Positions 1 to 54,852 of a DNA stretch of 64,000 nt are shown piece by piece. Origin of the DNA: Aurantiochytrium sp. KH105 (Eukaryota > Sar > Bigyra > Thraustochytrida > Thraustochytriidae); NCBI GenBank assembly GCA_003116975.1, contig BGKB01000166.1, positions 1 to 64,000 on the forward strand. The letters run 5' to 3'. Each line of letters opens with the position of its first letter. Position 1 is the first letter of the stretch. A program made the position numbers and the translations under genes. The notes under the pieces were generated by a model that was not told the origin of the DNA, did not search any database, and saw only the letters and a list, made by a program, of their open reading frames with translations.

Positions 1-3000
1 TGCACTCTGTCCGAATCTTCGAAGAGCCTTTTGCACCTCCGCGCGCTTTGCGCGTGTCTCGAGTAGCGCACTGCATGCGTCGGCCTCACGCTTCAGCGTT
101 GGGATACTCAATTGCGACGTCAAATCAAATGAAACAGAACTCGTGAACGCACGCACGGCAATGGCGCGCTTGTGACCTTGGCGCAGCGCGGCGAGGGCTG
201 CTCGCCGCCATAGCATTCGCACTTGCGCTTCACGTAGGGTGTTCTCTTGATTTGCCAAGTCGTTCAGGCCTCGTAGCTGCAGCCAGCACGCAAGTTGGCA
301 CTCAATGGGGACCTTTTCGCAAAATGAACGAGAAAGTTCGCTGCTTAACAGCTCCATCACGACGCGAGGGACCAAAATATGGAGGCATTGGCCCATGCCG
401 AGACGACGCATGCGCCATGCACCCTGGCAGTAATCACGAAAGGTCATGTCCTTGCCGATCGTCATCGCAGCGCGACCCAAGATAGGTTGCGCAATGTCCA
501 TTCCCGTCGTGTGCACATGATCGTAAAAGGTAAAGCGTTGGTCGGGCGACAAAGCAGCCTCGGCAAGCGGCACATCGCGAAAAAGAAAACGCCCACCATG
601 TGGTTGATCGGAGCGCAAGAGAACCCTTTGACGGTCTTGAGCATCCAAGTACACGCAACCCTTGAGATCATCAAGACCATGTTCCAAAAGTATCCAAGCC
701 ACTTCGCGATTCGAAAGGCCGACAATCAGCGCGCCTGTATCAATCAGCGCACAAAGAGAAGTGTCTTGTGCAACTTGATGGAGCAAGGCCTCAACCGTCC
801 AACCAAGTTCCAAAGGCGCACTCACCTCGACACATTCCCTGTTCGTCAAGGTCGCCCAGAACCGGCCCTCGGTACCCTCTTCCCATTGGCACTCGCCCAT
901 CTCGCTTGGCATTGCAGAACTTGGCGTTCCGGAAAAACCATGCGTCCGCCCCACTGACATGACCATCTCCTCCCCGCCAGCCACAAGCTTTCGAGCACGG
1001 TGTTTGAGTGCCGCGGGAAAGGCCACGCGCTCCAGAAAGGTACGCACTGCCTCGGGGCTGAAGCGCAGTCGCTGCCAAATCGCGTTCTCTTCAGAGTCCA
1101 ATCCATTTGAATTGTGGCCGGCGGCATCATCTTGGGATTCGCTTCTGCTCGAAGCTTGGGCCAGATGAAGCGGGAGAACAGCGGGCAGGGAACTCGGTGG
1201 CATTCCAGGCCCGGGATCTGCGATGGCCGCTTCATATTCGAGAAAAGCCTTGCGCTCCTGCAGCGGGCCAGCTTGTGTGAAAAGGTCTCTTTGCCACAAA
1301 CGCACGAGTTCACTCACGTCATTGCGCCGAAGGCCACTGTGCTGATACGCTAGTAGCGACAACACGATCAGAACGTCAGGCTGCGCAAATTCGGACGCAG
1401 GCGATGGTACCCCTTTTCCAAGAAAAGGGACACTCATGTACCGCCGCGTCGCGCTCCCGCCCGCCGCTGCTTCCTGCACAAGACCATGTGAGACGCCATT
1501 TACTTTGCCAAGACAGTGAGGCAAAACTACGTGTATATATGTCGCGGCCAGATTCACGAGGAAAACTGCAGATGGATCGATTCCAGCATGAACGGCCGCC
1601 TTGCTGCGCTGCGTTGCGCTCAACGACTTATCTGCCAAGGCCCCTCCGAGCAGTGCCTCACGCGAGTCCTGCGGGAGACTACCTTTGACGCAGCGCCGCC
1701 ACAATCGTGGCGCCCAACGACCGCCTTGCCGATTCGCCAGAGGCATCTGCAAAATTTTCAACTGGCGTATTGCAAACCATCGTGCATCGCCTGCAAGTTC
1801 AAGTCTTACGCGATTAGCTTCCAGTGCGTTCCTTGGAAGATAGAGCCTCTTACTTACAAAGGTCCCACTTGTTGCCTCTGCGCGATACGAGCGACCCCCG
1901 TCCACTGATGTCAGAACGCGCACTTTCGTCGGCAGCATCGAGAGCCCAGAGCGCATCGCAAACGGCGAATATTCCTCAAAGTCCACGTCGATTGCACCGA
2001 CACGAACTTTATGGGGCAATATCAAATCAACCGTTGCCACGCGCGGGTACTCCGCACTACACCAAAATGACGATGTTTCGCTCTCCAGCATGTGATGACC
2101 AGCGTGTTCGTCGTCGTCCAGGTTTGACGAGCACCGAATCTTCAAGTTTTGCTGCACAGGACGTAGGAGCGCGTCGGGGCCATCAAGTTCTGCGCAAAGC
2201 CATGCTGCGGCACTCTGTGCCAAAGGTTCCGTCATTTCGTCCTCATAGAATCGCGGATCCACGACAACGAGATGTGGCGTCGCCTCCAGCTTGCCTTGGT
2301 CCACGCCGCGCTTTATCGCCCTTGCCAACGCAGATGAGTCCTCGCGCTGCGCGTTTTGCAAAGCCCCCACGAGAACGCGAGCGAGACCACATCGCCAAGA
2401 CGCCTGGGCCAACTCTTGCATTGGGCCAATGGGAAAGTTGAGCTCAGAACGTAGCGGGTGCAGCAAAACGTCGCATTCATCGAGGACAAGGTGCGCATCC
2501 GCCAAGAGTTGCCACACTGCACTCACGGCTGCTTCAAGGGGTGTCTGCCCAGTGGAGGTGTCAGCAAGCTCTACAAACTTGAGAAGAAGCGCCTTGAGAC
2601 TCCCTGATGTCGTCAAAACCACGTCGCGTGCGCGCCGCGCCTCCAGCAGTCTCTCTTCGAGTACGCTGGCTTCGAGAGCTGCCTTTTCTCCGTGCAAACT
2701 GTATCGCGAAAAGTGCATGTGCACTACGCGCTTCCCAAAGGTAGGGGCCAACGCGCGAGCAAGGAACTGCGAACTCATGTCGACCAAAGCGTCTGGGACG
2801 GCAACAATCGTCAAAAAACCACGACTAGTCAACGCCATCGACAGCAAAGGCAAAACAGTGGAGCTCTTGCCCTGGCCCATTTTTAGCTGCACGCACGAGG
2901 AGTGCACATCTGCGCTCGCATCCAGGTTTTCCAACGTCTCCACTTGAGAGCGACGCAATGTGTACCCTGCGGAAATCTCAAAAATGACCCAGCGAGGATC

Positions 3001-4398
3001 GCCCGGGTGCTCCCATGATGTCAGCAAGAGTTCCAAAACACGTTCCCGACGTGCAGCAAGGTTTGCATCATTTTCCCTGTCGGGCGCCCATGTTCGCAGT
3101 GCAATGAGTGCATCACGCACCTTGCCCAGTAATTGAAGTCGACACGATTCGCGCCCAAGTGCTTGAGCTCCCGCCAGAGGAAGCGAGCGTACTTCGGGCG
3201 TCTGCAAGGAGCACGCCGCCAGCCGAAGCAAGTCCCAAAATTCAAGCATGGGGCGTCGCTGGGCCGCAACGTCGACTTCATCAAAAACATTGGCGGATGC
3301 AGTCTCCATCTCACGCGCCAGATCGCGTATGGTGTTGCGAATGTGAGCCATATCCTCGTCAACCCATTTGATCGCCTTTTCTATACGCGCGTGGTCACTT
3401 GTAAGTTTAAGACGCGCCTGGATATGCTCCGATTGTGTAAATTCATGATTTCTCGTTGCGCGCACGTCCGCTTCAATACGCTCAATGACTCGCTCTCGTC
3501 CTGGAAATGGGTCTGCAAAGCGACTGCCTCGCAACTCCTCAAAGGTGCTCGCGTCCATCGCAAGCGCCGACTCCTCTGCGGCTATATTTGGTTGAGCGTG
3601 CGCTGGCGACCGACAGTCGACGAGACGATTGAAAGATTTGGTCGACTCCAAAAGCATCCTTCCCACCATGCTCGAGTCCTCACCTTTCGCATCTAAAATG
3701 CCGCCGAAAAAGGCAACATCGCCCTCTTCACAGACTTCAAGAGCCTCGTGCGCAATCGCCTCGCCAAGGCGCGCAAGGGTAAAGCGTCGCGTGACAGCCC
3801 ACCGATCCACAATTTCGTTTGTTGACAAAATTTGCAATAGCAAACGCATGTAGCGCGCCTGTTGCACATAATTTCCACCTTCAGGTACGGGGGGGAGGCT
3901 CCGCAAATGGGTACCCGTGGTGAGCAGACACATGATCTGGAATGAGGACCATTCAAACATACTCGTGCCCTGAACGTCTTGCTTATGCAAATATAGCCGT
4001 GCCGACAAGAGCTCCACCAACGCGAGACCGACACCATCACCAACATCATCTCTGCCTCGTCCCTTGACTATTTTTATAAACCCGACAAGGCACGGGTCCA
4101 TCCACCCGATCTCGAGAGCGGTGCTCACAACGCGATGAATTTCAGGCCAATCGAGGCGTGGTCCGAGTGTCAGATGCTCCCGCAAACTCGGTTGCTGTAC
4201 GACCGACTTGCCCCCATTCGCCAATTCATCGAGAGTCTCTTCCGCCCAGCGTTTAGCGCCCTCCTTGAGCTGATGCCACCCGCCCCCGCCCTGTAGCGGA
4301 ATCATCTCTACGGTTGTTGCCGCCCCTCGATCATAGTATTCCAAGAAGACAGACATGACCTGCACATCTACATCTGTGCTTGCGTCACCCCCTTCGCC

Positions 4399-4429
<31 letters not shown>

Positions 4430-7400
4430 ATCGTCGCGCACTGGCGCCAGCGAGAAATGCGCTGCTTTCCACTTTTGATCGCAGCGCGCAGGACGGTGCG
4501 AGCAATGTGGGGTGGCAACCGTAATTTGGGGTCCACGTGCTCACGAGTGCACAAGTATCGCATCACATCGTGCGCTAGCACAACATGCTTAGGAAGAACA
4601 ACCGTATTTCCGCTGCGCAACAACGTGGCCTCCAAGAGCCACAGGCGTGCCGCGACGGCATCGGGGTCTTCGACCTTGGCGAGCTTTGTCAAATGGTCCA
4701 ACTCAGCCATCTCTTCTCCGGTGAGAGGGCCGTCCGCGGCCGTCGACGCGACAAGTTCCACGGCACCGCGATAGTCGCGCCCCGCTAGTTTGGCAACGAC
4801 CACCACGAGTGCTGCGTGTCGACTTAAAGGCTGCAGACGCGCACGCGCAGGATCCAGACGAGCCATAGCAAAAGCTTGCGCCGAAGCCACCGATGCTACA
4901 AGAGCAACTTCTTCGCTTGCGCGACTCGTCAGAATCACAAAGTGCGATAGTCCGCAGAGCGCAGCGCTGCTCTCTTCGGCAATTTCCTCGTCGCGGCGCA
5001 CGTCCAAGAATAAAGACGCATCACCCTCAAGGTGAAATATCCCGCTCTCCTCTTCGAGGTCAAAACGCAAGCCACGATTGACGAGCTCGATTCGCGCGAC
5101 AACACCCTTTGAACGTGCCCAGAACAGCAAGTGAGAAGCATCTTCTAGACGGCCCAGAGATGTCACGAGCTCCCGTGGCGGATCTCGAACGAGTTCCCAT
5201 TCGCCTTGCTGCACCGCGCCACTTCCAACGTGCACACAAATGTCCTCGCGCCCCGCGTCCGAGCCATCGTGACCCCAGATCAGGCCTTGCTCCTCATCGA
5301 GCCAAAAGATGCGGTCAGTCCACAAGGACCCCGGCAAATGGACAGACATACACCAAGGAGGCACATACAAAAGTGATTGCCCGTCTACAACCTCCAGAGA
5401 TGCTGTCAGGCAGCCAGTCGTTGGCGCGTCCGCTTGTGTTCGGGTAAACGGACACGCGCTCCAATTGCTCGTGTCACGAGGGACAGCAAGTCCGCATTCA
5501 AGAGTCTCGTACAAAGTCACGACGTCCCCGTGCTTGGTCACGAGACCTTGATGAACGAATTGCGAGGCGGACGTAGATCCCTGCTCTTCCCACAGTACCT
5601 CAACGTCTCCGTTTCCTGTCACGACGTTTTCGTTTGTGAACACCGTGGCGGACGATAGCTCGCAAAATGCGGGGCAATCTTGCAATTGGGGCCGCTTTTT
5701 GTTCACCCGCCGCGAGTCTAGCGGAGGGGCATCGTCAAGCGACAAGACGAGTTTATTCCCATCTAAAAGTTGGACCTCAACACAAAGGGTAGAGTCGTCT
5801 TCATAAAGAACCACGCACGCATCGGATGAGGAGGCATGGGATGAATGCGACGACGCCCGAATGTATTTGGCAATGATGATTGCCGCTTCAGCATCCTGCT
5901 CAAGACGTCCAGGCAAGCGACCGCGAGGGACCGCGCCATGCACGCAAACGTCTCCGGCCCAAAGGTCGACCTCCACATCCCCTCTGCAGAAAGAAGACCC
6001 ACACCGGGTCCAGTCGGGGCCTGAAAATGATCGCGGCGCACCTAAAATCTCTGTCGTCAGCGCCGCAAGAGATGTTGCCGACATCTCGATCTCGTCGGCC
6101 CACACATATGGGCGCGACGCCAAGAGGTGTCTGAGCAGGGCAGCCTCTCTTCCGTTTGTCCCGGAATGAAGTGAGCAGAGCGCAAAACGTAAAACGTCCT
6201 CTGCTGAACGGTCCCAAGCACCAACATCTTGCAAAGCGTACATGGCTGCACATGCGCCTTGGCGCCCATGTTTCATGAGAAAGGAGAAACAATGCTCCCG
6301 TAGCACGATCCCCAGACGACTACGGTCCGCCAAAGTCTCTTTCGCCAGGAACTCAACGACTACACCCGCCATGGCAATATCACTTAGAGCGTTCACAAGG
6401 TCGGCGGGAGCGGGAAGCACGCGACGACAGGCAACGAGGAGGCCTTCGAGAACGTCGGCGAGCAAACCAGGAACTACCGTGTGTTCCTCCTCTAGCTCCT
6501 GAGCCAAAAGTGAGTCAGCGCGAAGCGGACCTCGACAACGCTCAGGTTCTGCCGGGCATTCCAGCTCTTCCCATGGGACATCCAACTCTGTGTCATCCAG
6601 GGTCACCTCGAGAGGTTCAAAGAGAGCAGCGCACGTCAGTCGACGAATGTCGGGATTCAGCAAGAGCGCCGCGCGACCAGGCATTGCAAAGAATGCCAAG
6701 AGGCCAGGGATGCGCAGAAAGGGTGCCGTGAGATATGACAAGAGACGTTCCGCCTCCTCTTCGCTCAGGAATCCACCAAATGTTGGCACCGAGTTGAGTC
6801 GCATGATGGCATCTTCATCTACAGAGGCGGACAAGGCCTGTGCGCTCGGAATGAAAGCTAGAGCGTTTGCATTCGAACGAAATCGTCGTCGCTGGACGCC
6901 ATGGTCATGAAAGATGTCTTCGTGGCCGATGTAAACGTGCGTGACGACCTCCCCGCAACCAACAGATGTTGTTTCGCACGTGATCGGCAACTCTAAAAAA
7001 CTAGATGTCTTTGGTAGCGGGGAAAGCGTCCACACAAAGAGCAAAGCAAGGTCCCTTGCCGCAGCAAAGAGGCCTTGGGCGCTCGCAAAGGCTTGCGCTG
7101 CGGACGGAGCATCGATACTATGCCCATCGTCGTTGGTCTTTTGCAAGCGCGTGGCGAGCTGCAAAACAAATTCCGCCCTTGTGCGGCGCGTGCCAAAGCG
7201 AGAAAAGTCCCACAACTCTTGTTGTTGCGCTCCGGGCGACTTGCATAGGAAACGAATCACGCACTTTCGCACGGGCAAAAGCCAAGGGCTCACATCGAGA
7301 CAGGCGGTCACCGCATTGAGGTCGGCGCCATGCAAAGCTCGCGCTCGCGGCCAAACGTCTTCGTGGGACAAAATCTGGCTAAGCGAGCTCGCACCCTTTG

Positions 7401-9564
7401 GTGCAAGGATTACTGCATTCGCAAAAGCATATAGGCTCGCCACCACCACCACCCGATCGCCATCGCACAAAGTATTTGACGATACGACCCAGGTTGTGAG
7501 CTCCAAGAGCCAGGAAACTGTTTCTTCTTGAGCACGCGCGGACGCGGCCCATGCCTCGCACTGCATCCACGCATTCGGGTCGATCGGTAGCCATCCCGCC
7601 ACAGCCTCGCTCACGAGCGTGCTCGCCGTCGCTCGCCGCTGCGCATACCAGTACGCTTGGCTCACTTCATGCAAGGCTGCCACGCGATCCACCAAAGGCA
7701 GCGTCGGATCTTGCACAAGGCCGACTTTGTCGAGCCGGGTCTCGGGGCACAGAGTTCTATTCTTCATGGCCCCGTCCTGCATGACGGTGTCACCGTTTGC
7801 AAAGGCGCGCGTCTGGCGATACACAGGCGCGCTTGAGATGAGGTCCGCGGCTCGCGCGACAGTGCTCGAGGACAAGCCAAACGGCACATGCGCTGCCGCG
7901 GCAGTTAAATTTTCGTCACGATGTGCGGCTCTGGCCTTTTCTGCTCGTTCGCCAAGACGAGTCACCAAATTTTTGGCCCGGCGTGATACTTTCGTCTCTT
8001 CTTCAGATCGAAGAGCGGCTCGGGCGAGCTGCGTGCGCAAGGCGGCCCATTCGCCCCAATCTGACACGAGCGGGGTATCCGCGCTGGCTTCGAGGGCGGC
8101 CTCCACAACGCGGCAACGAAGCTCAAGTTTGAGCGCCTTCCAGCAAGAGACACGATCCTGCGCACTGAGCTGGAGGCGAAGGCCAAGCAGTGCGACGCTC
8201 ACCAGAGACGAGTGCGCGCGACCAGCCTTTACCCAAAAGGGAACTTCCTCTCCGCTGTACGATGCCGCCGCGGCGAGATGCAGGGGCCTTGTATCGGCGA
8301 GAAAAGGCAAGAGCACCTCGTACAGGACACGCGTCGAGTTGAGCTTCGACGCCTCACCATGAAGCTTGGCCAGCATGACCAGAAATGTGGGGTCGAGGAG
8401 CCGCAGGCGCGAGACGCTGCGCAAGGTGATTACAGGGCATACGCGGGCTGCCCCTCCTGTACCGTCAAGACGCCGCGGGTGATAGTCGGCTTGGTGTTTG
8501 TTCAAAACGAGTACTGTAAAGGTTGCTTCACCGACTGGAGTGCTCGTATGATCTTGATCTGGGGTCACCAGCAAGCCAACATAGCGTATTTTGGACGTGC
8601 CTCGGCATCGGACCGGGGCGAGTGCGGGGTGGTCGATTCCAGCGAAATAAGACGCCATCGCCTGTGCTTGCGCCTCCGAGCCGCCCTCGTGGGAATCTAC
8701 TTTATCGAGCCAGTCGATCGCAGACTTGAGCAGCGCGAGCCCCGCGGTCTCGCTTTGGGGTGGCAAAAGATCCCCCACGAGGGACCGTAGCACAAAGAGG
8801 TCGTCGCGCGATTCCATTTCCGGTTGCGAGCAGTACGGGTCAAGCAGCAATGAGCGCAAGAGGCTTGGAGTCACAAGCTCTGGCCCCACGAGCGTTTGCG
8901 TCTCTCCCATTGGATCGATGCGCGCGACGAAGCGCGCGAGTTGATACTTGGCGCGAACATCAACGCCCTTTTCCAGCTGCAACTTTTCAAGAGTCGAGCA
9001 ATCATCATGTTCGAGCCTGGGTTCCCCCAGTTCCAAGAGCATGCTATCGAGATCGGCCACGTGGTCCGTTCCGTCCTCGTCCGCGTCGGCCTTGTCGACC
9101 TCGGAAAGAGTCTTGGCCTCTGCGCCGTTTTGCGTCTCTGTGTCGAGCTTGAGAATAAATTTGGCATTTAGGAGACTCTCAAGAGCACGGTGGCCCTCGA
9201 CGTTTTCCGTGGCGTCGCGGTACCATCGCGCAAAGGCCTTCGCATGCGCATCCTTGACACCTTGAATTCGCATCTGGGTTTCGATGCCGTTGAGAGGGAC
9301 GCCAGCTCGGGCCATGCGGGCCCACTTTTCGAGCTTTTTCTCTACATCGCGCTCCGCTTCTCTTGCATGAGCCGGGTTGCCTCCGACGCCGGCCTTTTGG
9401 GGCGCTGCGGCCGCCGCCTCGTGCAGCGTCTCGAGCCGCCTACGGTCTTGGGCTGTCGCCTCGAACCCGTGCCGCTCCTTGGCGTCGCGCAGCGCCTCAT
9501 CCACCGTCAGCCCGGCGCGCACGTCCCGCGAGGCCTCCGCGAAAGCCCGTGCCCGTGACGCCAT
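1..9564 (-). CDS. Giant DUF3638/DUF3645 protein, helicase-like core, C-terminus beyond the window
   Basis: An uninterrupted minus-strand frame runs from an ATG at 9564 to base 1 (3188 codons, no stop), so the C-terminus is missing. The C-terminal third matches the eukaryotic DUF3638/DUF3645 family of roughly 3000-residue proteins, whose function is unknown. Recognisable pieces are a Walker A-like MGQGKSS (residues about 2229-2235), DECD (2362-2365), a DUF3645-type block beginning MSVPFLGKG (2710), FSGT (about 2877), LIDTGALI (about 2940), TTGMDI (about 3020) and QGAWRMRRLGMGQ (about 3050). Together these read like motifs I, II, III, V and VI of a divergent SF2/SecA-like ATPase; that reading is mine. 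Residues about 2492-2603 resemble a discoidin (F5/8C-like) beta-sandwich inserted between the two lobes. A run of eight Gln lies near 4401-4430. The N-terminal two thirds are unassigned. Family call is confident; the biochemical role is not. Confidence 0.9.
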
Positions 9565-9996
9565 CGCGCCCCGCCTCGTCGCGCCTTGCCGCTTTGCTGC
9601 CCGCCGCCCCTTCCATATCGCGCCCGCTGCCGCTCGCGCTTGTCGCGCTGCTGCCAGGTGCACACGACATTTTCGTTTCTCGCTTGTCGTCGTCACGTCG
9701 AGTCCGCCGCGCCTTAGTATTTCACAGGCATTCCTGTCGCATCTGCCGTGCCTCTGGTGATTGCTTGTAGTATCATCGAAAGATCAAACGCAGTCAGCTG
9801 CCTCTGCAGGCTTATAATGTAAAGCGCCGTCGACAATCGCTGCCATTGTCCCTGTCGCTGTCGCTGTTGCTGATAGCCGGTGGACATTTTTCTCCAAAGA
9901 GGTCTAATTGCTAGTCGAGTCCAGTCGGTCAGAAAAGCTTTTCCAGAAGTTGGTAGTATGGTGGTAATACACCAATGGTTGTACCAACGCCATCTC

Positions 9997-13345: not shown

Positions 13346-13850
13346 GCTTGCCTCCTATCTCTGTCAATCTTCGACCTCCCATCGTTGAGTGTGAGAGTGA
13401 ATGAATGAATGAATCGTTGGCTGGATCTTTCTTTCAAAGTCAGTCACGGATCGAAACGAATAACCGTAATAACCGTTTTCGACGTTTCACCCACTCAAAT
13501 CGTTGCACGCACGTGGTCAATACCCAACTACCGAGCTTGCTGCGCGCGCGCGCGGAAACGACGTACGGCAAGGGGGCTTCGGCGCTTGAAGGAGGCCGCC
13601 GGGGCGGGCGGCGAGAGGGTCCGGGCGCGGTGGCGTAGCGACCACTCCGCTTCATACCGCGCGTCTCGGTACAGGTTGCTGGCAAGGGACAAAAGAAGCG
13701 GCATCCCTTTCGTCCGGGTTCTGGTCGCGTGCGCTGGTCACCTGCGCTCTCCCACTCGCCCCGCTTTATTCTTTTTTGCGCCTGCGCGGGAGCGCTTCTC
13801 TCGCCTCCAGCCAGACGTACACGCAGTCCCGCAATCCTCCCTTTTCCATC

Positions 13851-13939
13851 ATGGCGCGCTCCATGCTCATGATGGACGTTGACGAAGGTTCGCAAGAGCA
13901 GTTGCCCACCCAAGCGCAGCAGCAGCAGCAACAGCAGCA

Positions 13940-13994
<55 letters not shown>

Positions 13995-15776
13995 CAACAC
14001 GAACAACAAGAACAAGAGGACCACTTTGATCATGTTGGTGTAGGGATCACGGGCACTCAGCCGCTCAACGCCAGTCAAGAGGAGGATGACGAGCTCGAAT
14101 CAGATGGCGTGTGGGGCCGTCTCGTGCACACGGAACGCAGCGCACTGTACCAAGCGCCGCCTCCACAGAGTAGGCGACCCGGACAACCCAAAATGGAAAT
14201 CGGAGCCGTCGACGTCAAGGGCGACACCTTCAAAATTGGCCGCGGCGAGTTCATGGATCTTCCCTTGAAAGACGTGTCTGTCAGCCTCGAGCATTGCATC
14301 CTCGAGCGCCAGGGCGGCACAGTCTTCATCTCAGACAATCAAAGCTCCAACGGTACCTATGTGCTGGGCAAAAGACTCAAGAGGCAGCAACGCAAGGAGT
14401 TGAAAAATGGCGACGTCTTCTCTCTTGTCCGCTCCAGACCCAGCTCAGCAGTTCGTGAGTGGTACGAATTCTGCTTCGAAAAAATTGGATCCAGTGCACA
14501 ACACGAAGACGAAATGAATCGTCTGCGCTTCGCGCAAAGGGTCGCGCAAGGAGACGGCCCACGCGGTGCCGTGCCCGATGCACTCATGGTCTCTTCGTCC
14601 GGAGACAGTGGGATGGCTGCTGCCATGCAGTGCGAAGAGTTTGTTGAAAACTACACATTGATCAACAAGCTTGGCGAGGGTGGCCACGCCAGTGTCTACC
14701 GCGTCCAGGGAAAGCGAACGGGGAAGTCATACGCGCTCAAGGTCATTGACAAGCGTCAATTCGGTCATGGAAGCGGTTCGCTCAAGGACCTCACCAACGA
14801 GGCCTTGATCATGCGCAACCTCAAGCACCCAGGCATCATCGAGCTAAAGAACATTTTTTCAACCGATCGTGCTCTTTTTCTCATCATGGAGCTCGTGCAC
14901 GGTGGCGAACTCTTTGACCGTATTGTCAACATGGGTAAATACCCCGAAAATCGTGCGCGCGGCCTGGTGCGCAATATCCTTCAAGCAGTTGCCTATCTGC
15001 ACGATCTCGACATTGTACACCGCGATCTCAAGCCAGAGAACATTCTCATGACCTCGCCGCACTCGGATATCGACATCAAGCTGGCTGACTTTGGCCTCGC
15101 GAAGGAGGAGAAAAAGGGCCGGCGAACGCTTTGCGGTACGGTCGGCTATGCGGCCCCAGAAGTATTGCGTCGCCAGCAATCAGAGCTCGGCCTCGGGACT
15201 TACGGCAAAGAGGCCGACATGTGGTCTTTAGGTGTCACCGTGTACATCATCCTTGCAGGCACGCCGCCATTCCCAGAGGGATCGACATCCCACGACGAGC
15301 AGTTTAGAGCACTGCGGCGAGCGGCCGAGTTCCGCGCCATGTCTCCCATTCTTCAGGACTTTATCCTTGGCATGCTCGAGGTTGACGGCAAGAAGCGTCT
15401 TACCGTACACCAGGCGCTTCGGCACCCCTGGCTCAAGCAGGAAGCGGACCCTCCCATGGCACCACCCATGGCCCCGCCCGAGACCCGGCGGCTAGCATCT
15501 TCCTCTGTAGCGCCCGTTTCCTCGTCTGCTTCACAAGTCCCAACGGGCTCGCAGGAACCGTGCGCTACTTCAGACACCCACGGACGAGGTGTTCAAGGGC
15601 CGATTGAATCGCACCCTTATCCGCCCCCGCATCCCTTCCACGACCGAAGCAACCGCCCCAATTCTGGTGATAGCACGGATGCCGCGCACGCCAAACGCAA
15701 GGTTGACGTGGCAGCGCCGTATGGCCGACCGGCGGTCAAGCTCGTCAAGATTCGCAGCGACGACTCTCTCTTGTGA
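13851..15776 (+). CDS. CHEK2: FHA-domain checkpoint kinase, CHK2/Rad53 type
   Basis: 641 residues. The ATG at 13851 is the first in the frame; upstream codons are open but lack ATG. A polyglutamine tract of about 30 residues (13917-13998) is flanked by SQ and TQ dipeptides (EGSQEQLPTQ before, GTQPLNASQ after), which is an SQ/TQ cluster such as ATM/ATR phosphorylate in CHK2. The FHA domain (about 120-195) keeps IGRG, SLEH and NGTYV. The kinase domain (about 268-530) has GEGGHASVY, ALKVID, HRDLKPEN, DFGLAK and a GTVGYAAPE activation segment, so it should be active. The tail has basic patches (AKRKVDV, AVKLVKIR) that may act in nuclear import. Family architecture SCD-FHA-kinase is that of DNA-damage checkpoint effectors. 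Orthology to CHK2 rather than a paralogue is likely but untested. Confidence 0.9.
13917..13998 (+). repeat. CAG/CAA tract encoding polyglutamine
   Basis: Mixed CAG and CAA codons inside the FHA-kinase gene, giving about 30 Gln between the two SQ/TQ-containing patches. Length polymorphism would be expected. Confidence 0.95.
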
Positions 15777-18622: not shown

Positions 18623-21600
18623 CTAGTCGTTCCGCTTTGCAGCATCTCGTGCCAGCGGATCAAGATACTGCTCAGCATACTCGCGCTCCTCGCGCGAGTC
18701 GCCAACCATCGTATCCCAGTTGACGCGCACGCCCGAAATATCGCCCAATTCATCGTCTTCGTCCTCTGCGGCTGCAGCTGCTGCTGCTGCAGAAGCGCTA
18801 TGCTGGCGTGTGCGAGGACCTTCGCTGCGCAACGTCTCCCCGGCGCCAGAACGTGGCACGTACGCCGAGTTCTCATCATCTTCTCCTTCAACGTCTATTT
18901 CTTTTCCTTCGTTCTCTTTACGCCCTGAGACAGACGAAACGTCGGCGTCGGGTTCAATGTCGAACATGACAAATTTGTCTTTGGCCCGCACATCCTCCCG
19001 ATCCAGATGTTGTTTGAGTTTCCCCTGCAAGGAGTCCATTTGACGCCCTGCCTTGACATACTTGCGCCGCTCCGACACGTAGCGCTCACTGATACTTACC
19101 GTGAAACTGCGCCGACTGTAGCGGAGAAGTTCCAGCATGCCACGAAACTCGTTATCTTTGAAAAGACGCTTCTCAAAAGAGCCTTCCAGCATCGTGCTCG
19201 ACAGCTGCCGCTTGTCCACCTGCCGCAAGTACTTGGCTTCCTCGACAGTACCCTGAGAAATGAGGCGATATACGCGTACGAAGTGACGCTGGCCCAAACG
19301 ATGCGCGCGGTCCTGAGCCTGTAAATCTGGTGTTGGGCTCCAGTCAGGGTCAAAAATCACAACTTTCGACGCGCCCGTCAAATTTAGCCCCTCACCGCCA
19401 GCGCGTGTGCTCATGAGAAAGACAAACTGATTCGGGTCCGAGTTGAACCTTTTGCACATGTCCTGACGCTGACTCTGACCCGTGCCTCCGTCGAGGCGAA
19501 GAAACGGGTACGAGAGCGACTCCAGGTACTTTTCCAGCACGTTTAAAAGCACAAGCGAATTACTAAAGATGAGCACCTTGATGCCACCTTTGTCCCGCCA
19601 GCGCTGCAAAAGCTGCCTCAAAACCTGCATTTTCCCGCACTGCGCCTCGTCAATCAAATGCTCAAAACGGACAGAACGGTAATAGTCTTCAGTTGGAACC
19701 TTGGAAGCTTTCGACCCGGGATGCAAATCCGGTCCTGCATTAGAACCTAGCGTCGCCATTCGACGCGCGTACGGACCCAACAGAAATTGGGACTTGCGCA
19801 ATTGGCGGTGTTTCTCCAAGGCGTCTTCTTCGCCTGGGTCTGCACGAATCAAGTCGAGATGATTTGCAATTTGAGCCAAAATAATGATCGCCGGCATTTG
19901 CGTGCATTTCGGGCACACTGCGCACTCCCGGAACCTGTGCAGCACTCTGCCAGCAGAGTCGCGCTCGTCTCCAGACTCGTCATCGCTGCTATCATGCTTG
20001 GGCAAGAGATATTCCTTGAGCTGCTTCATGTCCCTTGTTTGCTTTGCAAACTTGCCATCGCTTTCCGCGTCATTATCAAGGTCGTCCTCAACGTCAACGT
20101 CAGCGTCAGCGTCAGCGTTGCTTAATCCATCGAGAATAGGACCTTCCTCGAGGAGACGGTCGCTGACATCAAGCGCCCCCGAAGACGACCCTAGGAAAGA
20201 TTGGCCGCCCAAACGATTTTGGGGTCTTCGTCGGCGACGACGACGCACGCGATGCTGCATACGCCAAAGCGTGGCGTCCACATCGACAGCCGTATCCGTG
20301 GCATCATCATGTACCATGTCAGGTTCGTTAGCGGGAATCGAAAGTGCGCGATCGACGTCGGGTATCTCCCGATCAACGAAGCGAGACTTGTCGACAGCAT
20401 TGACAAGTTTCGTAAAGTCCTTGGAGTTGAGAGCGCGCAAATACACCCGTTCCTGAACGCGGGTCAGAGGACAGAGCACCATGGTATCCTTTTTGCCCGT
20501 AAGGCGGTCTGCGATGACCTCCTTGCCCCGTCGCAAGATGAGCCGATCAAGCGTCAACTTGAGCTTGCTGCGAACTGCGTGCGCTGCGCGCAACTCGCCC
20601 TGCGTTGCAGACTGCAGCCGGCCACGGTTGAGCGGGCGAGCGACCTCGAGATCAAAACTAGACTTGGGCCCCAGCTCACAGGGCGCCAGCACATGCATAA
20701 TGGCCCATAGTTCTTTTAACTCGTTGCTCACAGGCGTTCCTGTCGCGCCAATTTTGCATCGAGCTCGAAGTCGTCGCGCACTGATGGCATTCTGCGTACT
20801 CGGATTTTTTAGACGATGGCACTCGTCAAAGACGACCACGCGCCACTGCGTGCTCGCAAAAACGGAGTTGTTCATGGTCAGCTCGCGCATTCGCTCGTAC
20901 CCGACAAGAACAACTTCCACTTTGCCCGAGTTCGCCCCTTCGAGGACGTGCTCAACGTCCTCCCGTGTCGACGCCGTTGTCACAGACTCGGCGGCAAAAT
21001 AGCCCCAGCGCTTCAGCTCGGCTGCCCAATTGTCAAGCACCGAAACGGGCGCAACTAAAAGAACCGGACCCCCGGCCGACATAAACGCCGATGCTGCTTC
21101 CCTGTCACGAAGACGCTTTCGCAGCAGGTCGAGGTCTTCGCTTCGTCCCGTTTTGCCAAATATGGTCAAAAGAAAGCAAATCACCTGCACAGTTTTACCC
21201 AGTCCCATCACATCTGCCAAAATTCCGCCTCGCTCCGGAAACCCCGGCGAGATCGCTCCCGTAAAAATGTCAAACAAAAACCTCACGCCTTCCCGCTGAT
21301 AGGGCATCAGATAACGATTTGCGGACGCAGGAACAAATGCACGCGGCTTGAGCGCCTGGACACCGTTCAAAGCCTCCTCGTGAACAACTGTTCCGGCCAC
21401 ACGGGCAAACTGACCAGCGCCAGTCTCGAGATCAGCCCTCAGCTTGGCGTTGTCCCGAATCGCTCGCAGAGAGAGCTCCCAAAGACGAGGCACTGAAGCT
21501 GCACCACCTTGGCCACGTACCTTGGCATGCAATTGCCACTGCTTATCAATGATCTTGCGAACGTCTTGCAGGCGCTGAAATTGCTCCTTTTCGAGTTTGA

Positions 21601-23113
21601 ATTTGGGAGGTTTTTGACCCTGATCAAGCGCCATGTCCTCGGCCCTCGAAGCACGCTTCATCTCCACAAAATAGTCATGCAACTCCCGCGTTTCATGCAG
21701 CACGCTTTGAGGAAGTTCCGGGTTAAAGTGACCCACACAAAATCGAACCTTGGGTCCTTCTGAAAGAGGAGACTCAAAAAGGGGACGTTCTTCGCCTTCT
21801 CGCCCTGTTCCAGATACCTGGATGCCTCGAATCTTTCGAAGATTTCGCTCCGATTTTCCCTCGTGCCCAGATCCCGTTGTTGTTGTGCTTCGGTGCGCGC
21901 CTGCAAGGCTTGGTCGCGGACGACTTGTTGATCCGTACTTGGCTCTTAAAACCCGTCTCTTTCGCTCGCGCTCGCGCCTCTCGAGAAGCTCCTTTTCAAG
22001 TACACTTGTCGCACCTTCACTTCGGAAGGGCGAAGATGCAGTAGGTTTAATTGTTCGGTACATGTGTTTTCTCGTCACTGGAGTTGGGGGCGCCCTCGTC
22101 GATTCGTCAAGGCCAGGCTTTCGAGAGTTCTTGCCTGTACCATCCTCATTTCTATTATCGTCCTCCTCATCGTTGTCGTTGTCGTTGTCGTCATCGTTGA
22201 CGTAGTCGTAATCATCACACCGCATCATTTTTCGTGGCGCTACGCGAGTTGGAACATTGGCAATCTTGGGAGACGTGCGACGCGCGACCTTGGATGGAGA
22301 GGTGAAGCGCGCGAGTTCGCGCTCCAGCGCCTCGTCCAGTCCAAGATCACGCCGAGGGCGTCGGCGTTTTGGAGTGCGTGCGGTTGTTGAGTCTAGCAAA
22401 GGACCCTCTGAGGACGCGGTAGCGTCACCAGCAACGTCACTGACAGCACCATCAACAGTACCTGGAGGAGCCCATTTCGTCGCCAGTCCCGGTGTAGATG
22501 CTTCGTTTGCGAAACTTGCAGGTTGACGTGGACGTGCATTGAGGCCCGAACGAGGCTTCGTTTGAAAAGACGACGATTGACGAGACCTCGTACAACTTTC
22601 TTCCCGTCCTTCTTCTTCTTCTTCTTCTTCTGAAGAAGAAGAAGAAGAAAACGAGGCCATCAGGGCTTTGGTTTTCTTTGATGCCAGTAGATCAGGTGAC
22701 TTTCTGTCTCTCACAGCCCGATTCGATCTTTTTGTGTTGTCCATGGCACGATCCAACCTTTTATTTTCTTCCATCGCATGATCCGACACCTTGGTGCGCA
22801 ACGTCGAGCTTGTCCCAGTCGTCGTTGCAGTCTCGCCAAGAAACCCAATCTTGGCGAGAAAGGCCATCGCTCCTTTTCCCGTCTGGCCTGGTTGTGGTTT
22901 CTGCGTTTGCGGAGGCACGCGGGCGAACTCTTTGGGCCTCTCCTCGGCCGCATTCATAGCATCCCCATGCCTCCCGCTGCTCGCGAGGCCCGGCTTCTGC
23001 TGCGTTCTGCTGAGGATGCTGGCATTTCGATGCCGATTCCCCCCACTTCTGTCGTCACCCTTCAGCGCAAAGGCGGCCACAGCGGACTCCTCGTCCGACT
23101 CCTCAAAGAGCAT
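18623..23113 (-). CDS. ERCC6L2: SNF2-family ATPase, ERCC6L2-like
   Basis: 1496 residues from ATG at 23113 to TAG. The N-terminal 590 residues are disordered, with Ser/Glu runs, a 20-residue Asp/Asn-rich acidic stretch and basic patches. The ATPase core begins near 600 (YLMPYQREGVRFL), with Walker A in DVMGLGKT (about 630), SVLDNWAAELKRWGYF, DECHRLKN (about 763), GATGTPVSN, an acidic insert of about 200 residues between the lobes, VLIFSNS, STRAGGEGLNL and QAQDRAHRLGQ (about 1268). The block SVLDNW..ELKRWGYF is characteristic of ERCC6L2 rather than ERCC6/CSB. ERCC6L2 is a nuclear DNA translocase linked to transcription-associated repair and end joining. All ATPase motifs look intact. A perfect TTC/GAA inverted repeat at 22608-22650 encodes the Ser/Glu run. 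Confidence 0.9.
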   Translation of the reverse strand: MLFEESDEESAVAAFALKGDDRSGGNRHRNASILSRTQQKPGLASSGRHGDAMNAAEERPKEFARVPPQTQKPQPGQTGKGAMAFLAKIGFLGETATTTGTSSTLRTKVSDHAMEENKRLDRAMDNTKRSNRAVRDRKSPDLLASKKTKALMASFSSSSSSEEEEEEEGREESCTRSRQSSSFQTKPRSGLNARPRQPASFANEASTPGLATKWAPPGTVDGAVSDVAGDATASSEGPLLDSTTARTPKRRRPRRDLGLDEALERELARFTSPSKVARRTSPKIANVPTRVAPRKMMRCDDYDYVNDDDNDNDNDEEDDNRNEDGTGKNSRKPGLDESTRAPPTPVTRKHMYRTIKPTASSPFRSEGATSVLEKELLERRERERKRRVLRAKYGSTSRPRPSLAGAHRSTTTTGSGHEGKSERNLRKIRGIQVSGTGREGEERPLFESPLSEGPKVRFCVGHFNPELPQSVLHETRELHDYFVEMKRASRAEDMALDQGQKPPKFKLEKEQFQRLQDVRKIIDKQWQLHAKVRGQGGAASVPRLWELSLRAIRDNAKLRADLETGAGQFARVAGTVVHEEALNGVQALKPRAFVPASANRYLMPYQREGVRFLFDIFTGAISPGFPERGGILADVMGLGKTVQVICFLLTIFGKTGRSEDLDLLRKRLRDREAASAFMSAGGPVLLVAPVSVLDNWAAELKRWGYFAAESVTTASTREDVEHVLEGANSGKVEVVLVGYERMRELTMNNSVFASTQWRVVVFDECHRLKNPSTQNAISARRLRARCKIGATGTPVSNELKELWAIMHVLAPCELGPKSSFDLEVARPLNRGRLQSATQGELRAAHAVRSKLKLTLDRLILRRGKEVIADRLTGKKDTMVLCPLTRVQERVYLRALNSKDFTKLVNAVDKSRFVDREIPDVDRALSIPANEPDMVHDDATDTAVDVDATLWRMQHRVRRRRRRRPQNRLGGQSFLGSSSGALDVSDRLLEEGPILDGLSNADADADVDVEDDLDNDAESDGKFAKQTRDMKQLKEYLLPKHDSSDDESGDERDSAGRVLHRFRECAVCPKCTQMPAIIILAQIANHLDLIRADPGEEDALEKHRQLRKSQFLLGPYARRMATLGSNAGPDLHPGSKASKVPTEDYYRSVRFEHLIDEAQCGKMQVLRQLLQRWRDKGGIKVLIFSNSLVLLNVLEKYLESLSYPFLRLDGGTGQSQRQDMCKRFNSDPNQFVFLMSTRAGGEGLNLTGASKVVIFDPDWSPTPDLQAQDRAHRLGQRHFVRVYRLISQGTVEEAKYLRQVDKRQLSSTMLEGSFEKRLFKDNEFRGMLELLRYSRRSFTVSISERYVSERRKYVKAGRQMDSLQGKLKQHLDREDVRAKDKFVMFDIEPDADVSSVSGRKENEGKEIDVEGEDDENSAYVPRSGAGETLRSEGPRTRQHSASAAAAAAAAEDEDDELGDISGVRVNWDTMVGDSREEREYAEQYLDPLARDAAKRND
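22608..22650 (-). repeat. (TTC)n/(GAA)n inverted repeat inside the ERCC6L2-like gene
   Basis: About seven TTC units followed by about six GAA units on the same strand, giving a near-perfect hairpin with arms of about 20 bases. It encodes consecutive Ser and Glu in the disordered N-terminus. Confidence 0.85.
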
Positions 23114-50967: not shown

Positions 50968-51201
50968 GCTCCGCACCTAACGACGGTCTCGCGCTCCCGC
51001 CATTTTGCGTTGCGCCGGTCCCTCAAGTCCCGCACGCCCGCCCGCCCACGCACACCCTTTCGTCTCCTTTCCTTGCTCGCCTTGGATTGTTCGCGTCTCT
51101 CCGCAACTGCTTCATCGCGGCGAGATCGATCTCTGTTTGTCGTCGTCGTCATCGTTGTCGATGTTGTTGTCGTCGTCGTTGTCGATGTTATTGTCATCGT
51201 T

Positions 51202-51234
<33 letters not shown>

Positions 51235-51369
51235 CGCACCACATCACATCCTTCACCTGACATAGATGCACATCATGATCATCACAGCACAAGTTCAACA
51301 CAGCACGATGCAGCACAACTTCACAGCACCTCACTCGGCATCCCTCCCTCGCACTCGTACTCTCCCGTC

Positions 51370-51438
51370 CTCCCCCTCTCCTCTCCTCTCCTCTCCTCTC
51401 CTCTCCTCTCCTCTCCTCTCCTCTCCTCTCCTCTCCTC
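51370..51438. repeat. (CCTCT)n pentanucleotide homopyrimidine tract
   Basis: About thirteen units of strand-asymmetric pyrimidines. It is the complement of the GGAGA array upstream of the pyrophosphatase gene. Confidence 0.95.
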
Positions 51439-51625
51439 TGCGCGGCCCCGGCGCCTCGCGCACGCCGCGGCAGCCCTCCTCGCCCCTCTCTCTCTCCCGC
51501 GTCCTCGCAGGGAGCCAGCACCGGGAAGCCCGGCGGCCGCCCTGCCGCGCGCCGCGCCGCGCCCGCGCAGACCCGCTCCGAGCCGCGCGGCGCCGCGACC
51601 AGCCGGCGCAAGCACGCCGGGCGCG

Positions 51626-52021
<396 letters not shown>

Positions 52022-52197
52022 GCGGCGCTTTCTGCGCTCCTTCTCTCGCTCCCCGGCGCTCGGTTCGCGAGCGAGCGAGGCGGGGTCGCAGAGCCCGAAC
52101 TGCGAGCGAGAGCGCCGAGGGCGGCTGCGCGGGCTGCAGCTGCGCTGCGGCGGCTGCGCGCGGCAGAGAGGAGCGGCGGGCGGGCGAGGGAGGGAGG

Positions 52198-54852
52198 ATG
52201 GCGACCTCGCTCGTGTTCGTGAGCGTGCCGGTGCTGGCGAGGCGCAAGGCGCGCGAGGCGGAGAGCGCGGAGACGGCGCCCGGGGCCAAGGCGGCCGCCG
52301 AGAACAGCGGCGCCGGCAGCAGCAGCAGCAGCGCCAAGAGGGTGTCGCTGCCCACGTCGAGGAAGAGGAGGTCCTCGCTAACGTCGGCGGCCGCGCCGGC
52401 GCTCCCGGCCACCGTCGAGGCGCCGGCGAAGGCGAGCGAGGTGAGCCTGGTGAACGAAGATGGCGGCGGATCCGAAGACGAGGCGCCCTCGCAGCTCAAG
52501 AACGTGGCCAACGAAGTGCGAGACTTTCTGCGCGTGAACGCGAGCGAGCTCAACTTCATCGCCGAGGTCCCCTTTCTCAACGGAGCCACGCGCTGGGCGC
52601 TCTTTCTCTTCCTTTGCAAGACCGAGAGCGCCGAGCAGATGCTTGTGCGTCTCAACAATCGCGGCGTCGGCAACGTCAAGGACGGTCTGGGCATGGTTCT
52701 CTTCTCCCCCATCCAGCTCAGTCGCATCTCCACCACGCTCTCACCCAAGGATCCCAAGACTCAGCCCCCGACTGCTACTGCTACTGCTGCTGCCGCTGCT
52801 GCCGCCGCCTCATCTGCCTCGGCCGCCTCAGCCTCTGTACCAACCTCTGCGAGCACAAATAGTCTCGTTGGTATGGCGACAAGCGAGCAGGCGCCTGGAA
52901 AGTCGTCGCAAGACCCTGCGGGACCGACCAAAAAATCAGAAATGGGCACAGCCAATGCTGGACCCAGGCCTGGTGCTACTGGCGCTGGCGCTGCTGCTAC
53001 TGCTGCTACCAAGGTGCAGACCAACCAAGGTCAGGCTGCTGGAGCCGGCAGCAAGGTGGATCGACCGCCATCGCCCTCTTTCCACATCGCGCCCACCTCT
53101 TCCGAGAATGTTGGCGTCGCTAACGCTCTCCGCGCTGCTGTTCAGGCAGGCTTCATCTCACCCAGCGAGCTCGAGGGGTCCCAAGTGCGAGGCATCGTGA
53201 CGCAAAGACAGGACACCGACACCGGGGCCTCCACGGGAGGCTTGTCCAATGCATCGCAGACGCCAGGGACGCCCGCCGACCCGTTGCCACTTTCCCCCGG
53301 TGACGAGACGGCATCGTCCATGTCCAGCACGTCCTCGGGTGATGAGGAGGACATGGCCGAGAAAGTCGCGAACGAGGCCAATCTCCAAAACGGCCCTGCC
53401 GAGGAAGAAGGCGCCGTGCCGACCGCAATCCCAGAGGACCAAAGAAAATCGCAGGACGGGGCCCAGGCCCAACCAGAGCTCTTCGAGGAGGACGAGGTGT
53501 ACGAGAGCGACTCGGAAAGCCCAGACGATGTCATAGTCGTTGAACCCCGAGCGACAGCCAAGAATCATCTCGAAAGTATCATCAACAGGTTTGGCGAGAC
53601 CATTAAAAGTCGCGTGGCGGTCGACAGCGTTGTCGAGCTCGTAAATGCCTCGAGCGAGTTCTCGTTTGACTACGTGGTCCTGGTCGTGGTGGCCTCGGCT
53701 CTGGCGTGTATTGGTCTCGTCACCAATAACGTTGTCATCATTGTAGCCTCGATGCTCGTTTCCCCCCTCATGGGGCCGATCCTGGGCGTGACCTTTGGTT
53801 GGACATTGTGGGACTGGCACATGATTCGCACGGGTCTCTTTTCCGAGCTTGCGGGACTTCTCTTGTGCATCTTGGTTGGTTTCATTGGCGGCCTGTGCGC
53901 CATTCCGTTTGCGCAAGAATCGCTCCCGACCGAGGAGATGTGGTCGCGCGCCTACGGCACGGCTGTACTCGTGGGTATTTCCATCGCAATTCCTTCGGGC
54001 GTCGGTGTGGCGCTAAGTGTGCTGGGCAACAACACATCTTCCCTCGTTGGTGTGGCGATCTCGGCCTCGTTGCTGCCGCCTGCGGTTAACACGGGCACTT
54101 TGCTGGCCATGGCAATCTTGGCCAACACCAAGTATCTCGATTTGGAAAAGATCGAAATCAACACACTGATTGGCGAGAACAATACGGATTGGGAGGCTGT
54201 GACTATGCACACCATTCTCGCGGGCGCGGGCTGGAGCTTGCTGCTAACGCTGGCCAATATTGCCTGCATCTGGGTGGCTGGCATTCTCATGTTCAAGCTC
54301 AAAGAGGTGGTCCCCCTGGACCACAAGTCTGCATTCTGGACGGATGACGTGCCGAACACGCGTGCCTACAACGGCGTCCTGCGGCGCAATGACCCGGAGG
54401 CGACCGAGCTCCGCAAGCGCGTTGCCGATTACCTCAAGCGCCAGGACTCGGAGATCCCGAATTCGAACTCGCTCGGTCCTACAGCGACGCTTCAGGCCTT
54501 TCGCGCCCAGCCGCATCGGCGCAACGTTTTTGACGAAGACTTTTTTCGACCAGAGGGCGCTTCCCCGACTGTGCCGCACACGCCACTTTCTCCTGGCCGC
54601 TCTCATCGCACCGTGCCTCATGTGCGTTTTGCCACGATTGGTCGTTCGGCTCGTCACCTTTTGCACCGCCGTTCCCCGTCAACAGGTTCGCGTGATCGCG
54701 CCTCGTCTGCGCATTTGCGAGCCTTGGCCGAGGATCAATTTGACCTTGAGGAGTCCGCGATGGATGAGCCGCGCGCGCACTCCGCTCTGCACAAGACGAT
54801 GGCCTCCGCTCCCGCGATTGACGTGCACGGCGACCGCGATGGGGACCTTTGA
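52198..54852 (+). CDS. DUF389 multi-span membrane protein
   Basis: 884 residues; start set at ATG 52198 ([10 protein letters not shown]), directly after the GC-rich leader. Residues about 95-165 form a small alpha/beta module ([28 protein letters not shown]) like the N-terminal part of DUF389 proteins. A disordered Ala/Ser/Glu-rich region of about 270 residues follows. The DUF389 membrane core is at about 485-704: [75 protein letters not shown] and a last span. The ASML-SPLMGPI block is the family hallmark. A long, basic, Ser-rich cytosolic tail follows. DUF389 proteins are mostly bacterial, of unknown function. The expanded termini are unusual. Confidence 0.9.

Follow-up and report, generated by a model that had tools for sequence, protein, structure and literature searches.

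The giant gene at the start of the contig

The window, that is, the whole stretch of 64,000 nucleotides of Aurantiochytrium sp. KH105 that was analysed, opens with the gene of a giant DUF3638/DUF3645 protein (1..9564, minus strand), a single open frame whose C-terminus is missing at the start of the contig. The frame runs on the minus strand from nt 9783 to nt 1 and its first methionine is frame residue 74, at nt 9564; from there the window protein extends for 3188 aa up to the window edge, where it is cut off, window nt 1 being base 1 of contig C166 in a 76-Mb assembly. A presumed second allele on contig C12 (L009) is 95.8% identical to the window protein across 3175 aa. The C-terminus is absent from both, because the two genes terminate at the same base. 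In all four of the other paralogues that were read, an EQ-rich repeat lies in the tail at about the place where both alleles stop, and since both stop short of this repeat, the contig start is likely to be an assembly break at a repeat. A genome-wide search for the missing C-terminus with the C99 tail gave clear matches only to the four known paralogue pairs.

The two Pfam domains of the window protein, DUF3638 followed by DUF3645, both exceed their cut-offs (E 2.8e-30 and 105.7 bits against a cut-off of 31 for the former, E 1.4e-10 and 40.8 bits against 25 for the latter), and at E ≤1 the protein has one other Pfam match, an insignificant one to CCDC53 (E 0.13). Between the alleles the C-terminal module has accumulated 52 synonymous and 44 non-synonymous changes over 1010 codons, and the resulting dN/dS of 0.26 argues for purifying selection on the module.

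Elsewhere in the window, the neighbouring genes code for an FHA and kinase protein with a polyglutamine tract (13776-15776, plus strand), an SNF2 helicase (18623-23113, minus strand) and a DUF389 protein (51010-54852, plus strand), none of which has an obvious link to the motor discussed below. A tRNA-Gly (anticodon acc) called by ARAGORN at 7529-7624 on the minus strand lies within the giant reading frame and is probably a false call.

Relatives and motifs of the C-terminal module

The family is well represented in the same assembly, where all ten candidates match DUF3638; they form five contig pairs with like scores and have frames of 3231-8355 aa. Of the window pair both proteins were read, and of the other four pairs one protein each. 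The paralogues carry, in addition, UBA, ubiquitin, WWE, thioredoxin, SH3 and EF-hand domains above the Pfam cut-offs, and a RanBP-type zinc finger that narrowly misses its cut-off. In paralogue C4 (L012) motifs II and III lie about 940 residues apart, owing to a very long insertion. It includes a stretch rich in Cys and His, CSADCENHHNTICLRCNKDWGNHSGHTC, which by eye has the look of an IBR-type zinc finger; the insertion has no Pfam match to such a finger at E ≤0.1.

A scan of the genome collection uncovered two further relatives. The first, L023, is filed under an Anaerolineaceae MAG and consists of a 3315-aa, eukaryote-like DUF3638 protein which keeps the whole 9.9-kb contig open; it is probably a eukaryotic contaminant of that MAG. 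The second, L024, comes from Legionella jamestowniensis, and DUF3638 matches occur in 56 of the 143 genomes of its order, the Legionellales (55 of them over the cut-off), with frames mostly of 2000-5040 aa among the matches listed. The preliminary description had presented DUF3638/DUF3645 proteins as conserved in many eukaryotes, and to this a bacterial branch of the family must be added. When L024 is compared by BLASTP with a set of six eukaryotic proteins, its match to the window protein has an E-value of 1e-10 in the region of the C-terminal motifs and C-lobe and of 5e-6 in the N-lobe. No relative was found in scans of viral contigs, nor by tblastn in plasmids (the L064 module as one query) or in phages (the C99 module as one query). 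The 36-row tree places all six eukaryote-like rows in a single, long-branched clade (support 1.0), in which the window protein and its allele diverge most, and it is compatible with transfer in either direction, if there was any, between protists and bacteria of the Legionella order.

Part of the likeness to L024 lies far from the module, in a small segment of the form PGGW...GHAxx...F.xxNTGxGxxYH found at window positions 8488-8580 (minus strand), at residues ~96-147 of L024 and at residues 153-205 of paralogue C68. For this N-terminal GH..NTG..YH segment, BLASTP with L024 gives 3e-8 to C68 and 5e-4 to C70. It is possibly a degenerate enzyme domain; its reading as a peptidase was dropped for the window protein, because neither this protein nor C70 has the His.

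The C-terminal module as aligned (alignment A3) occupies 1..3015 of the minus strand, on which all of its features lie, and comprises 1005 aa, module residue 1 being at nt 3015. Pfam DUF3638 (PF12340, 2350..3021) would make up the N-lobe, from the Q motif to just past motif II. It holds a Q-motif-like R..Q, LRRSQVE (2938..2958), with Q in 23/23 and R in 21/23 rows of A3, the Q standing 23 residues before motif I; motif I or Walker A, MGQGKSS (2860..2880), with GxGK in 23/23 rows and its GQGKS at nt 2877-2863, residue 2230 from the methionine; a candidate motif Ia, VPDALV (2782..2799), with P in 23/23 rows; and motif II or Walker B, DECD (2470..2481, residue 2362), where DE is found in all 23 rows and the fourth position is D in 6 and H in 17. 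An insertion (1450..2403) then separates motif II from DUF3645, at the site of the preprotein-binding domain of SecA, as placed with the help of a SecA_PP_bind match in L126. Part of the insertion (1786..2139) has a weak F5/8 type C (discoidin-like) match at E 0.21, below the cut-off. The insertion varies between paralogues and, within A3, reaches its greatest length in the window protein and its allele. Pfam DUF3645 (PF12359) follows at 1360..1449. The remaining motifs are motif III, FSGT(P) (925..936, residue 2877), whose [ST]GTP has G in 23/23, T in 22/23 and P in 22/23 rows; a candidate motif IV, LIDTG (733..747), with D in 23/23; motif V, TTGMDI (493..510, residue 3019), with G.D in 23/23; and motif VI, QGAWRMRRLGMGQ (388..426, residue 3047), with QxxxRxR in 23/23. 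The order in which the preliminary description had listed MGQGKSS, DECD, FSGT, TTGMDI and QGAWRMRRLGMGQ was borne out (nt 2880-388, minus strand, 831 residues to the last Q).

Alignment A3 contains 23 rows, namely the window protein, its allele, three paralogues, L023, L024 and 16 of 20 bacterial stretches; by origin these are six eukaryote-like rows, the window protein and allele included, and 17 bacterial giant proteins. Left out were C4, for its very long insertion, L068, which is incomplete, and L058, L059 and L061, whose motifs resemble those of L056. A larger set of 36 rows, 34 of them distinct, adds 13 rows to A3, some of them incomplete. Eleven of the 26 invariant columns of A3 fall in the five named motifs (three in GxGK, two in DE, one in SGTP, two in GxD and three in QxxxRxR), and three more are the Q of the Q-like motif, the proline of Ia and the aspartate of IV, as assigned here. 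GxGK and DE have no exceptions in the 36-row set, where the motif V glycine is substituted twice and falls in a gap three times. All four of the other paralogues read have these motifs in this order, as do the bacterial homologues, which argues that they are not due to chance, and the named catalytic positions are all intact in the window protein.

Spacing within A3 is 20-27 residues from Q to I, 132-170 from I to II, 280-516 from II to III (516 in the window protein), 135-161 from III to V and 26-27 from V to VI, the last in 23/23 rows. In SF2 proteins motif III reads [ST]GT or SAT, motif V GxD and motif VI Q...R, some 25-30 residues past motif V; these forms and this distance are found in the module, as are a GxGK[ST] Walker A and a DExx Walker B in 23/23 rows of A3. 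In motif VI the second conserved Arg stands at +6, counted from the Q, instead of at +7; the classical second GR is absent in most rows, and all 23 rows carry QxxxRxR in place of the Q..GR.GR.G of SecA. A Pfam scan of the A3 members at E ≤1 matched DUF3638 in 23/23 rows and DUF3645 in 17/23, and touched SF2 families through ResIII in 2/23 (best 6.2e-4) and DEAD in 1/23 (5.5e-4); SecA_DEAD is not among the matches listed (25 of 30 families).

Profile comparisons with SecA-like and other ATPases

Comparison alignments were built from Legionella-order loci for SecA (15), UvrB (14), SNF2 (20), the SF1 protein UvrD (12) and the AAA+ protein ClpA (12). A further set consists of 13 giant SecA-like loci (L126-L138), gathered by an NCBIfam TIGR00963 search below the SecA cut-off. 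They are a separate population of giant SecA-like proteins in Legionella-order genomes, some of which have more than one, with open frames of 1283-4001 aa. Pfam recognises SecA_DEAD in 13/13 of them, P-loop_SecA in 9/13 and SecA_PP_bind in 3/13, and one member touches DUF3638 in return (E 0.079). The E- and P-values of hhalign hold for one comparison each.

The comparison with SF2 and SecA profiles which the preliminary description had proposed as a check yields a strong match, in register, to the giant SecA-like proteins, and of the families compared SecA-like proteins match best. In local alignment A3 scores 64.1 against them over 264 columns (z 25 from 20 column shuffles). In the same run, z is 14-17 for giant SecA-like proteins and UvrB, 10-14 for giant SecA-like proteins and SNF2, 6-8 for UvrB and SNF2, 6-7 for SecA and UvrB, 166-172 for the close kin SecA and giant SecA-like proteins, -0.2 to 1.2 for SecA and SNF2, and 1.5 for A3 and ClpA, the AAA+ control. 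The local path runs through the Q motif, I, Ia and II and over the insertion to the start of DUF3645, which aligns with TGRASVGQRWSAG in L126 (residues ~490-503), in the closing part of its SecA_PP_bind match (452-510); this segment is presumably the return segment that follows the preprotein-binding domain in SecA. The position of the insertion fits that of the II-III insertion of SecA, and the SecA-type return segment is recognised by its pattern in only 2/13 giant SecA-like partners. The N-lobe alone scores 49.8 against a null of 15.1 +- 2.1 (30 shuffles).

End to end, A3 scores 46.2 against the giant SecA-like proteins over 700 columns (P 1.3e-8), with a maximum of 10.2 among 30 shuffles and 4.2 for the reversed template, and motifs I, II, III, V and VI are in register. 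The 36-row set scores 60.5 (P 3.2e-11; maximum of 20 shuffles 11.8), and the five other families score 1-8 end to end. The C-lobe alone, with 36 rows, reaches 18.5, a score attained by none of 40 shuffles (maximum 15.5), and motifs III, V and VI fall on their counterparts. Because the template had been trimmed at motifs III and VI, the two ends are favoured in this alignment, but motif V gains nothing from the trimming. Motifs V-VI alone score 17.3 with V in register (0/40 shuffles reach this), and against SNF2 they place VI on VI without significance, 30/40 shuffles reaching the score. The residues that the preliminary description had assigned to motif VI are in register in two of the three alignments of A3 or the 36-row set with the giant SecA-like proteins, and are misplaced, out of register, in the 36-row full-length alignment. 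Its claim that motif order and spacing match SF2 or SecA-like ATPases holds for the order and for a V-VI distance that overlaps the 26-35 of those giant SecA-like proteins that could be scored.

Ordinary SecA has no significant profile match to A3 (z 0.6); SecA and SNF2, both of them SF2 proteins, fail to match each other in this set too, and the miss therefore says little. UvrB, SNF2 and UvrD give nothing against A3 beyond short P-loop stretches (z 2.8-4.0), and SNF2 stays within its shuffles against the 36-row set. Since unrelated P-loop pairs such as UvrD and ClpA reach a z of 5-7, only the SecA-like match carries weight. The end-to-end match to the giant SecA-like proteins is lost with the six eukaryotic rows only, with the 17 bacterial rows only and with an 18-row core; the corresponding local scores, taken without shuffles, are 37.9, 35.2 and 57.9. 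With an alignment of 11 bacterial rows (A4), local comparison gives nothing significant. The global alignment of the 23-row C-lobe with the giant SecA-like proteins fails, and taken alone the C-lobe would be weak evidence.

Among solved structures in the PDB, phmmer and a profile search with A4 found no sequence relative, and a profile search with A3 gave two chance matches to kinases (E 0.53 and 2.1). An AlphaFold model of the module, computed with alignment A5 (the window protein, L023, and L024 in two halves; 4 rows, 3 proteins), has a mean pLDDT of 35.1 and a pTM of 0.27 and is unusable.

A putative SecA-type motor and its alternatives

The whole of the data is best explained by a divergent SecA-type SF2 motor, an ATP-driven protein remodeller or unfoldase, and we consider this reading probable. 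Its parts differ in strength. Motif conservation, order and spacing and the profile kinship to SecA-like proteins are grounded in sequence, and from them it is highly probable that the module is an SF2 motor and likely that its kin are the SecA-like proteins in particular. A polypeptide substrate is a tentative suggestion, about which we are rather undecided, made because of the SecA kinship and of the UBA, ubiquitin-like and other protein-binding domains of the paralogues. As neither the SecA profile nor the SecA form of motif VI is matched, the module should not be called a SecA; its sequence is best read as that of a divergent sister.

The relationship to the giant SecA-like proteins is expressed in long open frames, in the agreement of motifs I, II, III and V along alignments of 666-700 columns, in the II-III insertion and in the V-VI spacing, which is 26-35 in the 3/13 that could be scored and 26-27 in the DUF3638 rows. 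The giant SecA-like proteins differ in their recognisable SecA_DEAD and P-loop_SecA domains and in a classical Q..GR..R.G..G, whereas QxxxRxR stands in the DUF3638 rows, in which the I-II (132-170) and II-III (280-516) distances are longer. With the SecA preprotein translocase the module shares the order of the motifs and, as far as position goes, a large II-III insertion; it differs in having no significant profile match to it, and in the V-VI spacing, which is 61 in 15/15 SecA proteins. SecA ends in a C-terminal scaffold and a zinc tail. These are not seen here, and no C-terminal domains of SecA were identified; the C-terminus is missing from the window protein and its allele.

The same motifs could belong to a helicase or translocase for nucleic acids from a different branch of SF2 (SNF2, ResIII or DEAH) with no special link to SecA, its giant N-terminal part targeting RNA or DNA complexes. 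This is unlikely in our view. Motif III, SGTP or TGTP(Q)N, is like that of SNF2 and ResIII, which also share the DExH of the 17 bacterial rows and the Q...R of the motif VI region; ResIII and DEAD are the sole SF2 families among the Pfam matches listed, the SNF2 N-lobe score is 31.2 against a null maximum of 23.6, and one paralogue has WWE and weak Tudor/Agenet-like matches. The z values of 4.0 for SNF2 and 2.8 for UvrB are nonetheless to be set against 25 for the giant SecA-like proteins; the SNF2 and UvrB matches are short and local, spanning about 40 columns around Walker A, and that of SNF2 is lost in the 36-row set. The II-III insertion with its conserved return segment looks SecA-like by position, and SNF2 and ResIII proteins are not known to have a long insertion of this kind. 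A P-loop protein unrelated to SF2, in which the later motifs are coincidental, is very improbable: the AlphaFold model of the module lends no support to a fold, and plain SecA, UvrD and ClpA match at most over P-loop stretches, but motifs III, V and VI supply some of the few columns without variation and stand in register with the SecA-like motifs, at scores out of reach of shuffled templates.

Somewhat less improbable than either, though still doubtful, is that the module has kept the fold but serves a ubiquitin-linked machine as a scaffold or nucleotide switch and does not translocate processively. The very large accessory regions, the ubiquitin-related and calcium-binding domains of the paralogues and a motif VI unlike that of processive SF2 enzymes would suit such a role. 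The catalytic positions, however, are invariant in eukaryotic and bacterial rows alike, and a mere scaffold would not need them.

If the module is a SecA-type motor, residues ~2185 to ~3080 would form one SF2 ATPase of about 900 residues. DUF3638 would be the first RecA-like lobe, with the Q motif, Walker A, Ia and Walker B; the large insertion would occupy the place of the preprotein-binding domain of SecA; DUF3645 would be the conserved segment that returns the chain to the first lobe; and motifs III-VI, in the last ~200 residues of the module, would lie in the second lobe. ATP would be bound between the lobes, the two arginines in QxxxRxR, at module residues 868 and 870, being candidate arginine fingers, and its hydrolysis would push lobes and inserted domain against a substrate. 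The fold of two RecA lobes, the hydrolysis of ATP, the polypeptide substrate and its remodelling are all predicted. An insertion that varies between paralogues and bears a weak F5/8 type C match would fit a role in substrate binding.

In the literature found, which does not extend to subscription journals or to InterPro, the Pfam and InterPro accessions of the family are not mentioned, DUF3645 is named in one of the papers that name DUF3638, and the passages on DUF3638 assign it no activity. One paper, which deals with DUF3638 genes of Tetrahymena thermophila, calls the mechanism undefined (PMC12615304). SecA-like helicase-related domains are mentioned for Amoebophilus effectors in the portion available of PMC3482391, which offers a parallel in a SecA-like domain and in an intracellular bacterium of amoebae; DUF3638 does not appear in that portion, and the likeness is one of description.

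On the widest reading, which we consider possible at best, eukaryotes would own, outside plastids, a giant SecA-derived ATPase family composed of DUF3638, an exchangeable substrate-binding insertion, DUF3645 and a second lobe. Such proteins would act on protein clients by threading or unfolding them, the clients of some paralogues being ubiquitin-linked, and would have been exchanged between protists and intracellular bacteria (Legionellales). The assignment to a SecA-type motor would in itself turn an orphan giant family into a testable ATPase. It would explain DUF3638 and DUF3645 as two pieces of a single motor with an insertion between them, and it would tie the giant proteins of eukaryotes to those of intracellular bacteria.
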